Below, one piece after another: positions 54,223 to 60,109 of a stretch of 64,000 nucleotides of DNA; position 1 is the first letter of the stretch; every line of letters begins with the position of its first letter. Origin of the DNA: Parvibaculaceae bacterium Mf 1.05b.01 (lineage in GTDB: Bacteria > Pseudomonadota > Alphaproteobacteria > Parvibaculales > Parvibaculaceae); contig BAOK01000001.1 in the NCBI GenBank assembly GCA_000509225.1, forward strand, positions 1,116,001-1,180,000, written 5' to 3'. The notes under the pieces were generated by a model. The model did no database searches, was not told where the DNA came from, and saw only the letters and a list, made by a program, of their open reading frames with translations. The position numbers and the translations under genes are program-made.

Positions 54223-54993
54223 ATGACTTTTGTGCCCCCATCCCCCCAAGACCTCACAGGCAAGGTTGCCATCGTGACGGGTACAACCAGTGGGCTTGGC
54301 CGTCGGTTCGCCCAGGTGCTGGCGAACGCCGGAGCTGCTGTCGCGATTACTGGTCGGCGGGTCGATCGACTGGAAAGCCTTGGTGAGGAAATTGAAGCAA
54401 TGGGAGCACGTATGCTTCCCGTTCAGCTCGACGTCACCGAGGTTTCGTCCATCGAGCGGTGCGTCCGCGAAGTCGAGACCGAGCTTGGCCACATTGATCT
54501 GCTGGTCAATAACGCAGGCATGAATGTTCAGTCGCCTGCTGTCGACATGGCACCGGAAGACTTCGATACAATGATGTCGACTAACATGAGGGGCTCCTTT
54601 TTTATGGCAACCCGTGTTGCCCAACGCATGATTGAGCGGGGCGAGGGGGGCACCATAATCAATATTGCATCGATCGGAGCCCACACCGTCCTTCCCGGCC
54701 TCGCAACCTATTGTATGTCTAAGGCTGCTGTCGCGATGATGACCCGTTCGTTGGCTCATGAATGGGCGCGCCACAAGATCAATGTCAATGCGCTTTGCCC
54801 CGGCTTCATTGAAACCGAGCTCAACAGCGAATGGTTTGCAAGCGCTGGCGGCGAGAAGCAAATAAAAACGTGGCCCCGCCGACGTCTGGGCCAACAAACT
54901 GATCTGGATGGTGCCTTGCTGATGCTTGCATCACAACAAGGACGCCTCGTGACCGGGTCAGTTTTGACCATAGATGACGGGCAGTCTCTCTAG
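54223..54993 (+). CDS. SDR family NAD(P)-dependent oxidoreductase
   Basis: 256 residues. Classical short-chain dehydrogenase: cofactor loop TGTTSGLG at 20-27 or so, NNAG at 96-99, Ser150, Tyr163 and Lys167 (YCMSK). The Arg residues in TGRRVDR after the second strand favour NADP(H). It lies alone between the DsbA-like gene and the orphan tandem pair. Substrate unknown; gluconate 5-dehydrogenase-like enzymes share this pattern. Confidence 0.94.
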   Translation: MTFVPPSPQDLTGKVAIVTGTTSGLGRRFAQVLANAGAAVAITGRRVDRLESLGEEIEAMGARMLPVQLDVTEVSSIERCVREVETELGHIDLLVNNAGMNVQSPAVDMAPEDFDTMMSTNMRGSFFMATRVAQRMIERGEGGTIINIASIGAHTVLPGLATYCMSKAAVAMMTRSLAHEWARHKINVNALCPGFIETELNSEWFASAGGEKQIKTWPRRRLGQQTDLDGALLMLASQQGRLVTGSVLTIDDGQSL

Positions 54994-55031
54994 GTTCCCC
55001 ATACCCCTCTAACGGCTGTAAGGCTGTCACG

Positions 55032-55046
55032 CGAATGCAGCATTCG
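55032..55046. repeat. Small hairpin after the SDR gene
   Basis: CGAATG-CAG-CATTCG, a perfect six-base stem 39 bases after the SDR stop. No T run. Confidence 0.3.
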
Positions 55047-55109
55047 GGGCGGAGAATGGTGGTCACACTAGACCGGCATTTACCCCTCTGATCCTGCTTG
55101 AGCTGCAAA

Positions 55110-55616
55110 ATGTTTCATCGACGTATCTGGAGATATAAATGGATCGTATTGGAGCCTTTTGAAAAACATCTGGGCGGCGTCAAATTTTCGGAGATCACCG
55201 GGCCCCACGAGAAACGCTATCAGTTTGATCCTGCAGTGGGTGACCTCAACTCACCGCTCTGTGTGTCAATTGCCTATGCCAGAAGAACATGGCAGGGCGA
55301 AACAAAACCCTGTTCGAAAGCAAAAGCCACCCATTTGATTGTTCGGCCTCATCTGCGTAAGGAGTATTCTAAACCTCTAAGCAATTCAGCATGGAACACC
55401 CGGAATGTTCTATATCGATTCAAAGACCGTTTGTCCGGTTCCGTGAAACACTTCACGGGGGAAACAGAAACCAGCGATTCACTCGTTCAGTGGGTGGGAA
55501 TTGAGCTTGTTTTGAGCGTTGCCGACATCGAACAATCTCCAGACCAAACCTACTCTGCATGGCAAAATGTGGTTTCACCTAATTGCTCCGAATACGACCT
55601 AATTTCACCGGCCTGA
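55110..55616 (+). CDS. Orphan protein, tandem copy A
   Basis: 168 residues from the ATG at 55110; a TTG at 55098 is also possible. I do not recognise a family. Aligned with copy B, the first 85 or so residues match without a gap: MF at 1-2, KW at 10-11, VL at 13-14, FSE near 26, EK at 34-35, Cys51, YAR at 56-58, WQG at 61-63, PC at 67-68, KAT at 72-74 and LIVRPHL at 76-82. The second half aligns loosely. No signal peptide or membrane segment. Conserved Cys51, Cys68, Trp61, Arg79 and His81 are candidates for function. Upstream sequence is AT-balanced with a weak TTGAGC ribosome site. Confidence 0.7.
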   Translation: MFHRRIWRYKWIVLEPFEKHLGGVKFSEITGPHEKRYQFDPAVGDLNSPLCVSIAYARRTWQGETKPCSKAKATHLIVRPHLRKEYSKPLSNSAWNTRNVLYRFKDRLSGSVKHFTGETETSDSLVQWVGIELVLSVADIEQSPDQTYSAWQNVVSPNCSEYDLISPA

Positions 55617-55825
55617 TTTTTTGAGCGCGTTTTTAGACACTTCTGTCTATTCACCTATTTGCCAGTGTAATACTTGCTTATAGGTCGATACCGATTTCCA
55701 TTCTAATCAACGCTGCACTCATACATTGTCAATAACTCGCCTCTAGTTTTCGCTTCTGTGTGGTGCTCGGCATAAGCCAATTGGGACTAATTTTGTGCCG
55801 CACGGGTGATGACGGGAGGCGTACG
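55617..55825. other. Non-coding gap between orphan copies
   Basis: About 210 bases, more AT-rich than the surroundings, so each copy may have its own promoter. No clear hairpin or direct repeat seen. Confidence 0.4.
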
Positions 55826-56476
55826 GTGTTTGAGGCAAAGGTCAGTGACCTGAAATGGCGGGTGCTCGCGCGGTTTGAGCGTGAGCAAAATACGCTTGCC
55901 TTTTCTGAAGCTGTTAGTAGCCAAGAAAAACACCACCACTATGAAAGTGAAACACCGTTTGCCGATACGACGTTCTGTATCGCCACGGTGTATGCCCGTA
56001 AGAACTGGCAGGGCGTCGTGACCCCTTGTGCCAGAAATAAGGCCACACGCCTCATTGTCCGTCCGCATCTTTGCTGGGAGTTTCCGGAAGGGTTTGTCTG
56101 TGACAATGGAGGCATCCCCTGGCTCCATGAGATGTTCGAACTACATGCACGTCGTTTTTTCGACGCCTATGCGGGAACCAGAACGCATTCAGGCAAGACA
56201 ACCTACTTTGTCGGTGTCGAAACCATCATGAGTGCGCGCGACATTCAAGAGAATGCCGGGGCACCATTTGAGCTATGGAACCGGGCAGTCGCCTCCTATC
56301 TCTCCAGGTCGAATAGTGATGACGGGCTCGTATCAAACTCTAGCCAGAGGCCTTTGAAAACGCCTCTACCAATTGGCGACGGAGCAGCTTCCCGTTGGGC
56401 GAACGGGGTAGCGTTTCAACGAAGACCACTTCGCGGGGCTGCTTATAGGTGGCAAGGTGGTCAGCCGTGTGGCTGA
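55826..56476 (+). CDS. Orphan protein, tandem copy B, with antisense C-terminal extension
   Basis: 216 residues from a GTG at 55826, which has a strong GGGAGG site six bases upstream and gives an N-terminus (MFEAKVSDLKW) that aligns exactly with copy A (MFHRRIWRYKW). A longer GTG start at 55760 is less likely. It carries all the residues shared with copy A, including Cys51, WQG, PC at 67-68 and KATRLIVRPHL. Homology to copy A fades near residue 170. The remaining 45 residues lie antisense to the last 137 bases of the convergent acyl-CoA ligase gene and look like read-through. No family recognised. Confidence 0.65.
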   Translation: MFEAKVSDLKWRVLARFEREQNTLAFSEAVSSQEKHHHYESETPFADTTFCIATVYARKNWQGVVTPCARNKATRLIVRPHLCWEFPEGFVCDNGGIPWLHEMFELHARRFFDAYAGTRTHSGKTTYFVGVETIMSARDIQENAGAPFELWNRAVASYLSRSNSDDGLVSNSSQRPLKTPLPIGDGAASRWANGVAFQRRPLRGAAYRWQGGQPCG

Positions 56477-57914
56477 GGATGGAGGCCACATCCGCTGTTT
56501 CTAGATCAGCCGGGACAACAAACGCCGCGATAATTGACACGTCGGATCTGACCTGAATTTCGCACACACCTACCTCGGCTACATTTGGGTGGGTTGCGAT
56601 GACTGTTTCCACTTCTAAAGGTGAAACACGGTAGCCCATTGCGTTCATCACATCGTCTGCACGGCCTTCATACCAAAGGTAGCCATCTTCATCGAAGCGA
56701 GCGAGATCACCGCCAACAAACCAGTCGCCACGATAAACAGCTGCGTCTTCATCGGGGCGATTCCAATATCCAAGCATCAAACCCGGGTCAGATCGATGGA
56801 TAGCCAAGAGCCCGATCGCCCCGGTGGGCAGGGGGTCGTTATTGCTAGTGTCTTCGACATCAAGGATCGATATCGCCCGACCTGGCTGCGGCTTGCCGGG
56901 GCTACCTTCCCGGTTCTGCATACCGGGTCCCGTTGAAACGTAGGTTGAGCATTCGCTCATGCCGAGCGCTTCATAGAGATTGGTACCTGTTACCTTCTGC
57001 CAGCCTTGCAGCAGGGCTGGTGACAGCGCTTCACCCGCTGTCAAACCGTGCCGAAACCTCCCCAAATCTACCGCCGACAGATCGCAATATTTCAAAATTT
57101 GTCGATATAGAGAGGGAACTGCCGCGAGCAAGGTTGCCTGATATCTCTCCAGTAGAAGCGGCCAGACCTGAACATCCTTATTGCCGGTAAAGAGAACTGT
57201 TGTTGCTCCGTTGGCCCAAGGATCCGTCAGTCCGACACCCAAAGTGTAAGTCCAGTTGAAGGCGCCCGCGTGGAGAACAACATCGTCCTCCCTGATGCCA
57301 TACCATCCCTGATACATTGGGCGCCGCCCCCAAGCCGCTCTGTGGGCGTGCAAGACTCCTTTGGGTGTGCCGCTGGTTCCAGATGTATAGACGAGATAGC
57401 CCGGGTCATCTGCCCGCGTACCCGCATAATCGACGGACCGAGCATAGGTGATCATTTTCTCTATTTCGTCCGACGTAAAGCGCATAGCGTCGCCGGTCGA
57501 CATGTCAAACTCATCAGCGATCGCGATCGCACGGGCGCCGGAATCCTCCAGCAGAAATCCTGCTTCTTCGGAAGTAAGCTGCGAAGAGGCTGGCAGCGGA
57601 ACGATGCCAGCGGCAAGTGCACCGAAAAACAAAAGTGCGTAGGTGCTTGTGTTCGGGAGACGGATCATGAGGCGGTCGCCCGGGCTCAAGCCTGAGTCAA
57701 GGAGTGCGGCGGCAATGCGCCGTACCGCATTATCCAGCTGTCCATAGGTCCACTGTTCCGCAGCGTCCTTTGGTGCTTTTTCATCTTGCACCACGATCAG
57801 AGCGATCTTGTCGGGACTTGCCGCTGCGTTGGTCGCCAGGCAGTAGCGCGCCATATTAAAGTCGGCAGGCGGGAGTGGCCCTGAAAAAGCTTGGGGTCTT
57901 TCCGTTGGTTTCAT
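56340..57914 (-). CDS. Acyl-CoA synthetase (AMP-forming), benzoate-CoA-ligase-like
   Basis: 524 residues. Adenylate-forming enzyme with ATP loop VYTSGTSGTPKG, GMSECSTYV in the A5 position, GDLARFDEDGYLWYEGRADD and the C-terminal catalytic Lys in PRSPNGKLLRR. The length and GTSGTPKGVLHAHRA pattern resemble aryl- or medium-chain acyl-CoA ligases. The substrate acid is unknown. It converges on orphan copy B, and its start faces a GNAT gene about 60 bases away. Confidence 0.94.
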   Translation of the reverse strand: MKPTERPQAFSGPLPPADFNMARYCLATNAAASPDKIALIVVQDEKAPKDAAEQWTYGQLDNAVRRIAAALLDSGLSPGDRLMIRLPNTSTYALLFFGALAAGIVPLPASSQLTSEEAGFLLEDSGARAIAIADEFDMSTGDAMRFTSDEIEKMITYARSVDYAGTRADDPGYLVYTSGTSGTPKGVLHAHRAAWGRRPMYQGWYGIREDDVVLHAGAFNWTYTLGVGLTDPWANGATTVLFTGNKDVQVWPLLLERYQATLLAAVPSLYRQILKYCDLSAVDLGRFRHGLTAGEALSPALLQGWQKVTGTNLYEALGMSECSTYVSTGPGMQNREGSPGKPQPGRAISILDVEDTSNNDPLPTGAIGLLAIHRSDPGLMLGYWNRPDEDAAVYRGDWFVGGDLARFDEDGYLWYEGRADDVMNAMGYRVSPLEVETVIATHPNVAEVGVCEIQVRSDVSIIAAFVVPADLETADVASILSHTADHLATYKQPREVVFVETLPRSPNGKLLRRQLVEAFSKASG

Positions 57915-59656: not shown

Positions 59657-60109
59657 ATGTCTGCATTGCCTGGTACAACAGGCCGTCGGCGTATCTATCT
59701 GATGCGCCACGGTCATGTTGACTATTTCGGAAAAGAAATCAGGGAGGCAGGGGGCGACTTTTCTGTCGTGCCCCTAACGCCGCTTGGCCAGGAGCAGGCA
59801 AAGGCTGCTGGCATTGCCCTGTCGCACGTCGCTTTCGACCGGGCTGTTTGTTCCGGCTATCCGCGAACACAACAGACGGCAGAATATGTTCTGGCAGCAC
59901 AACCGTCTGATGGGGCGCCTGCCCTGGAAGTCGATGCCGGTCTGGTAGAGGTGCATGGCGGCGATTATGGTCACGTCAAAAACCGGGCTGAGATGGCGGC
60001 CAAAATGGCTTTTCATTTCGACATTGCAGGAGAACCCGGGGCCTCCATGCTCCCTGGCGGAGAAGTGTTTGCTGAGGCCATGGCGCGCTCTGTCGCGTCA
60101 ATTACGTGA
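59657..60109 (+). pseudogene. Truncated histidine phosphatase family protein
   Basis: 150 codons. The N-terminal half of a phosphoglycerate-mutase-like phosphatase is clear: YLMRHGHVDYF with the phosphorylated His, then FDRAVCSGYPRTQQTAEYV and an LVEVHGGDYG region. The frame stops after ARSVASIT, before the second catalytic His (usually in a V-A-H-x-G motif), which I cannot find in any frame of the following 150 bases. Family members are about 200 residues or more, so this is probably a gene shortened by deletion rather than a simple frameshift. It may still be translated, since it follows the CaiB/BaiF gene by only 12 bases. Confidence 0.6.

Follow-up and report, generated by a model that had tools for sequence, protein, structure and literature searches.

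Two orphan genes between a dehydrogenase and an AMP-ligase in Parvibaculaceae bacterium Mf 1.05b.01, and a gene tail that is probably double-coded

In a stretch of 64,000 nucleotides from Parvibaculaceae bacterium Mf 1.05b.01 (contig BAOK01000001.1, positions 1,116,001 to 1,180,000; hereafter the window), two adjacent genes without a recognized domain, which we call c1 and c2, lie among genes of ordinary metabolism. The locus raises the question of what these two proteins are and where they came from, and of how c2 comes to end on the opposite strand of the gene that it converges upon. In bacteria, long overlaps between antisense frames are often written off as errors of annotation. The features of the locus are:

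54223 to 54993, + strand: short-chain dehydrogenase (PF00106), upstream flank of the insertion site
55110 to 55616, + strand: c1, a 168-aa orphan protein with its ATG at 55110
55634 to 55757, + strand: conserved c2 leader block, 39.5% GC
55634 to 55649, no strand assigned: perfect inverted repeat TAGACA-N4-TGTCTA at the start of the leader block, a candidate operator
55814 to 55819, + strand: Shine-Dalgarno sequence GGGAGG, 6 nt 5' of GTG 55826
55826 to 56476, + strand: c2, 216 residues from a GTG start at 55826
55826 to 56302, + strand: c2 core domain, residues 1-159, homologous to c1
56340 to 56476, + strand: c2 C-terminal tail, antisense over the ligase 3' end
56340 to 57914, - strand: AMP-binding (ANL) ligase (PF00501, 1.3e-63; PF13193, 1.5e-14), convergent to c2

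The proteins encoded by c1 and c2 are paralogous: 47 of 163 aligned residues are identical (29%), nearly the whole of c1 is covered, and the match has an E-value of 1e-24 in blastp and 1.8e-24 in phmmer. The preliminary description of this DNA had presented them as a related tandem pair with a gap-free N-terminal alignment, sharing YAR--WQG----PC---KAT-LIVRPHL and Cys51, and all of this holds: the frames are adjacent on the same strand, the motif and Cys51 are found in both proteins, and no gap interrupts the alignment of the first ~87 residues if c2 starts at GTG 55826. That GTG and its Shine-Dalgarno sequence occupy the same aligned position in 5/5 c2 orthologues, with the GGAG kept in every one, so that the start listed for the open reading frame, 55760, is to be rejected as too early; in genome G007 the open frame of the orthologue (217 residues) is closed just upstream of the start. 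For c1, an in-frame TTG lies at 55098, upstream of its ATG. An alignment of the seven family sequences, which are closely related to each other, contains 28 invariant columns, including Trp11, Cys51, Trp61, Arg79 and His81. The fixed Cys, Trp, Arg and His positions had been taken to mark a functional site, with Cys51, Cys68, Arg79 and His81 named as the set to follow; Cys51, Arg79 and His81 are indeed present in 7/7 sequences, but Cys68 is replaced by Ala in G007, and the invariance of the five residues has to be set against a predicted fold that suggests a non-enzymatic adaptor.

That the pair is an orphan without recognizable domain, surrounded by ordinary genes, was likewise borne out. The neighbours are assigned by Pfam to DsbA, SDR, AMP-ligase, GNAT, CoA-transferase, phosphatase, glyoxalase and amidohydrolase families, while neither c1 nor c2 has a credible match in Pfam, NCBIfam, PHROGs, PADLOC or the PDB sequences; the weak matches to Pfam PH_11 (E 0.14), PHD_P300 and Tertiapin and to PHROG 23136 (0.061) involve single members of the family and were discarded. 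The wide family that had been envisaged did not materialize: c2 is found in 5/7 genomes of the genus and c1 in 2/7 (the window genome and G008, whose c1 is 66% identical and lies at the same location), and neither c2 nor the seven-row alignment retrieves any relative in the other 33 genomes of the family and order sample. The class sample yielded matches in 3/385 genomes, every one from this genus, and the phylum sample, which shares part of its genomes with it, in 3/398, namely the window's own genome and two weak matches (E 1e-3 and 7e-3) that we attribute to chance, as each lies antisense to another open frame on inspection by eye. A scan of contigs recovered two relatives among 31 candidate stretches (G006 and G007). 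Nothing above chance was found for c1 or c2 in IMG/VR viral contigs, phages or plasmids; matches in Caulobacter phage Ccr (E 0.5-0.9 over 38 residues) and in a Methylobacterium plasmid (E 0.06, with in-frame stops) are of this chance kind. An apparent third copy in G005 (residues 152-204, one internal stop) matches the overlap tail alone, and we read it, without further check, as the antisense of another AMP-ligase. In the genomes sampled the family is genus-restricted, and it is probably young.

Within the genus the two genes evolve faster than their neighbours: between the window and G008 the identity is 0.66 (c1) and 0.74 (c2 core), as compared to 0.84 (ligase) and 0.93 (dehydrogenase). Both are under purifying selection. 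For the c2 core, dN/dS is 0.06-0.13 between the window and four orthologues, values that are rough, as the more distant orthologues are nearly saturated at synonymous sites. Between the c1 genes of the window and G008, synonymous change has reached saturation (pS 0.75; pN 0.22), and the changes fall 45/33/87 on the three codon positions.

The flanks of the pair are kept in genomes that have neither gene, in which the gap between dehydrogenase and ligase measures 60 bp (G003) and 54 bp (G004); in the five c2 genomes the same gap is 1346, 1339, 805, 833 and 916 bp. The pair thus represents an insertion or, less likely, a loss in the genomes that lack it. c1 and the spacer have a lower GC content. 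An AT-rich upstream region had been ascribed to each copy: this is true of c2 (45% GC in 55617-55825) and fails for c1 (56% in 54994-55109, the window being at 54.7%). c1 has no match in G005, the closest relative, whose c2 is 90% identical, but G008 has it despite being more distant; this implies that c1 was lost or transferred by itself. Elsewhere in the neighbourhood, a histidine phosphatase gene (59657-60109) is broken in the window, with 150 residues followed by stops as compared to 246-248 residues in five relatives of the genus; the next gene also lies much closer than in these relatives, so that an internal deletion is likely.

The overlap between c2 and the ligase, of which the preliminary description makes no mention, is 137 bp long and comprises the last 45 codons of c2 and ligase codons 481-524; the AMP-binding_C domain of the ligase ends at residue 509, within it. 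From the coordinates, ligase position 3 is paired with c2 position 2, and ligase position 2 with c2 position 3. The c2 frame is open to the same stop position in 5/5 carriers, and in each of these the shared DNA holds two conserved frames on opposite strands. Among ligase codons that specify one amino acid in all carriers and for which a silent change is possible, the third base is variable in 9/31 inside the overlap vs 275/315 outside (Fisher 7e-12). The transition is sharp: third bases vary in 37/40 of codons 441-480, just outside, and in 10/33 of codons 481-513, so that the wobble base is nearly frozen from codon 481 on and the boundary coincides with the c2 stop codon; at codon 480 the sole variable base is the one that makes this stop TGA or TAA. 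Over its last 45 codons the ligase shows no deficit of change at positions 1+2 (for example, 13 between window and G007, as compared to a mean of 12.4), and this normal divergence excludes recent recombination as the cause of the low wobble change. In codons 514-524 the three positions vary alike (7, 5 and 5 of 11), and this segment alone argues neither for nor against double coding.

A control is provided by 26 ligase genes from genomes without c2, which were compared with the five carriers (37 genomes have the ligase; five were not used, G003 and G004 are included, and L072 was left out, its stop being absent within the locus). For each pair of sequences we calculated the ratio of third-base change in codons 481-513 to that in codons 20-480, keeping pairs with enough codons and an overall wobble difference of 0.20-0.75 (320/325 pairs without c2, 130/130 mixed and 10/10 with c2). 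The ratio is 0.00-0.48 with a median of 0.27 for the pairs in which both members have c2 (n=10), 0.44-1.75 with a median of 1.03 for the pairs without it (n=320), and 0.61-1.34 for mixed pairs (n=130); 1/320 of the pairs without c2 comes down to the highest ratio of the carriers, the pairs not being independent of each other and the ten carrier pairs being related, although the difference between the groups is large. As seen by eye, the antisense frame over this stretch is interrupted by a stop in 16/26 sequences without c2 and by none in the other 10. The silent bases of the ligase are therefore constrained only where the other frame exists, and suppression of changes that are silent in the ligase and missense in c2 only when c2 is present is the signature expected of double coding. 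The tail of c2, we conclude, is probably double-coded and under selection, and probably dates from the landing of the gene against the ligase.

Residues 160-216 of c2 have a pI of 11.3, and c1 is without any such tail; both whole proteins have a pI of 8.9-9.0, while the c2 core alone is near neutral (6.65). The pLDDT of the c2 model is below 50 from residue 165 onward, and disordered segments are typically predicted with low confidence, so that the tail is basic and, on the model, probably disordered.

The start of c2 is preceded by a leader that is itself conserved. The block is 71.7-85.1% identical in DNA to four orthologous leaders, the highest value being for G008, from whose c2 core that of the window differs at 57% of synonymous sites; the leader changes more slowly than the silent sites of c2. 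Good matches to it within the genus occur upstream of c2 only. The inverted repeat is the sole perfect copy in the window and in the genome, and its 5-bp core pairs in 4/5 orthologues, with one mismatch in G007. A wider regulon was rejected, as relaxed matches to the palindrome number 12 on both strands and those to a reversed-pattern control 24; an RNA structure was rejected on the unfavourable covariation term of RNAalifold (+1.28). Rfam has no match for the leader or the overlap, no sigma-70-type promoter is predicted in the leader, and by eye the five leaders have no small ORF at one shared place. Probably the leader is a regulatory region or 5' UTR, and it seems probable that c2 is regulated separately from c1 through this conserved leader and its operator-like site.

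Structure prediction, proposed as a check in the preliminary description, returned a resemblance rather than an assignment. AlphaFold2 models of single chains were built with the seven family sequences, the same for both proteins, and are thus not independent of each other; they reach pLDDT 85 and pTM 0.81 for c1 and pLDDT 67 for c2, and consist of a helix, four long antiparallel strands, a helix, two or three strands, and helices. Foldseek found no match to the models at E 0.001 or less. In VIA-align 2, class-I secretion chaperones or YbjN-like proteins occupy 15 of the best 18 rows for the c1 model (Z 5.6-7.6), the remaining three being two rows of the MotA C-terminal domain and a protein from an archaeon that is uncharacterised, and 9 of the best 12 rows for the c2 model. 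The c1 model matches AvrPphF ORF1 (Z 7.6, rmsd 3.9, 122 aligned), AmyR (Z 7.5, rmsd 5.0, 135), a chain of the SycN-YscB entry (7.3), YbjN (Z 7.2, rmsd 4.3, 128), Synechococcus T110839 (6.8), SycT (6.6) and DR_1245 (6.0). No Z reaches 8 for either model, best values of 7-8 are typical of models without a clear match, and a fold that is missing from these lists is not thereby excluded. An hmmscan of both proteins and the seven family members at E up to 10 gave no YbjN match (PF10722), and hhalign against seven YbjN sequences of the genus gave a probability of 0.2% over 24 columns; two ordinary YbjN genes are present elsewhere in the host, with no profile link to c1 or c2. The predicted chaperone- or YbjN-like fold is a coherent hint and not a proof.

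These observations can be read in more than one way. The main rival sees in c1 and c2 regulators that bind DNA and have a MotA-like 'double wing' sheet, c2 binding the palindrome of its own leader and regulating itself. The MotA C-terminal domain heads the list for the c2 model (Z 6.3, rmsd 3.5, 102 aligned) and comes seventh for the c1 model (Z 6.8, rmsd 3.5, 103 aligned), and a conserved palindrome and basic proteins are what this reading would have. We still regard it as unlikely: chaperone-like folds score as well as this match and cover more residues, no DNA-binding family is matched, the genome has no second perfect palindrome, and the c2 core by itself is near neutral. It is rather improbable, too, that the wobble suppression reflects a nucleic-acid element (a terminator, an antisense RNA or an RNA structure) and that the c2 tail is accidental read-through. 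Terminators lie at the 3' ends of convergent genes, which is where the overlap sits, and there is a weak terminator-like hairpin at 56477-56493 (one of 4 such sites in the region, with 2.2 expected); but this hairpin falls outside the overlap, the constraint begins at the c2 stop codon with the TGA/TAA alternation as its variable base, change at ligase positions 1+2 is not reduced, and Rfam is silent.

The insertion at an empty site, the lower GC of c1 and spacer and the patchy presence would also suit phage or mobile-element remnants without cellular function, a reading made improbable by purifying selection over a large synonymous divergence and by viral, phage and plasmid matches that stay at chance level. 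As for true type III secretion chaperones serving some effector, the resemblance of the models to AvrPphF ORF1, the SycN-YscB entry, SycT and CesT is in their favour, but secretion genes are absent among the neighbours, no CesT-family sequence match was found, and the genome has a single export-gate (FHIPEP) gene, which would fit a flagellum alone. We consider this reading very improbable indeed. A second FHIPEP gene, absent from the window genome, occurs in G006 (contig C30:2370-4352), and could belong to a second flagellar system, to an injection-type system or to contamination.

The explanation that we favour, and to which as a whole we give about an even chance, is that of a young, genus-restricted adaptor pair that was inserted and whose second member had its tail overprinted on the ligase. 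On the models, c1 and c2 would most likely be small cytosolic proteins with the fold of YbjN/AmyR and of class-I secretion chaperones, and may act as dimeric protein-binding adaptors (homodimers or a c1-c2 heterodimer) rather than enzymes, in the adaptor- or chaperone-like manner suggested by analogy with AmyR. A segment with the genes would have entered the dehydrogenase-ligase gap in an ancestor of some members of the genus (we infer the direction), the c2 frame then running into the antisense strand of the ligase 3' end; c1 would later have been lost, or was never present, in some lineages. The outcome would be a basic, probably disordered tail of ~45 residues which, on the statistics above, is under selection together with the ligase and might serve as a partner-binding or localisation element, with regulation possibly exerted via the leader palindrome. 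Taken separately, it is fairly probable that an orphan gene inserted tail-first and captured the opposite strand of the conserved C-terminal domain of the ligase as a selected tail. By this same, quite likely reading, the same 100-odd bases would encode the C-terminal domain of an AMP-ligase on one strand and, on the other, the basic tail of an adaptor specific to the genus, and the overlap would have been a source of new protein sequence and would also have bound the incoming gene to the place where it landed. The five genomes with the overlapping gene and the 26 ligases without it constitute a natural experiment, and hence a controlled comparative test of selection on the tail; at this locus the making of new protein sequence through insertion and overprinting can be traced, and the predicted core of the family resembles a widespread and poorly understood adaptor fold.

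It is with such systems that c1 and c2 are best compared. According to the available part of PMC5398634, AmyR is a module for protein interaction that forms dimers, has no enzymatic role and ends in a disordered C-terminal chain, and T110839 and DR1245 are grouped structurally with YbjN and the class-I chaperones; an excerpt of PMC3575483 gives a Deinococcus genus-specific protein as the partner of DR1245. Like the YbjN/AmyR/DR1245 group (PF10722), c1 and c2 are small, AmyR also having a disordered tail, and are predicted to follow the order helix, antiparallel sheet, helix, strands, helix (125-136 aligned, Z 6.0-7.5); unlike AmyR, which has three long strands before the middle helix, their models have four, and sequence and profile matches to the group are absent. 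With the class-I type III secretion chaperones (CesT, SycT, SycN-YscB, AvrPphF ORF1) they share the predicted fold (Z 4.5-7.6), and as tandem paralogues they recall the heterodimeric SycN-YscB; they differ in the lack of adjacent effector or secretion genes, of a chaperone match in Pfam or NCBIfam at E up to 10 and of a PDB sequence match.

As regards the overlap, the accessible portion of the literature on antisense overlap, double coding and overprinting (including PMC2174442 and PMC7457138) contained no orphan with a tail-only overprint on a convergent neighbour and a carrier/non-carrier control. The antisense overprinted genes laoB, ano, asa and pop of E. coli, as described in the available sections of PMC5810103, PMC5960689, PMC6294744 and PMC7103648, are similar to the c2 tail in that a coding frame arose antisense to an older gene; in c2, however, overprinting is confined to the tail of a gene that is otherwise independent, with convergent 3' ends, and its support is comparative (5 carriers vs 26 non-carriers), not from ribosome profiling. 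Stop-codon read-through is one proposed origin of convergent overlaps in the part of PMC2174442 at hand, and the prokaryotic overlaps treated there share with c2 the phase 123:132, here over 137 bp; the c2 case departs from them in that its overlap can be followed back to an orphan gene at a site that is otherwise empty, and in that the double constraint has been measured.
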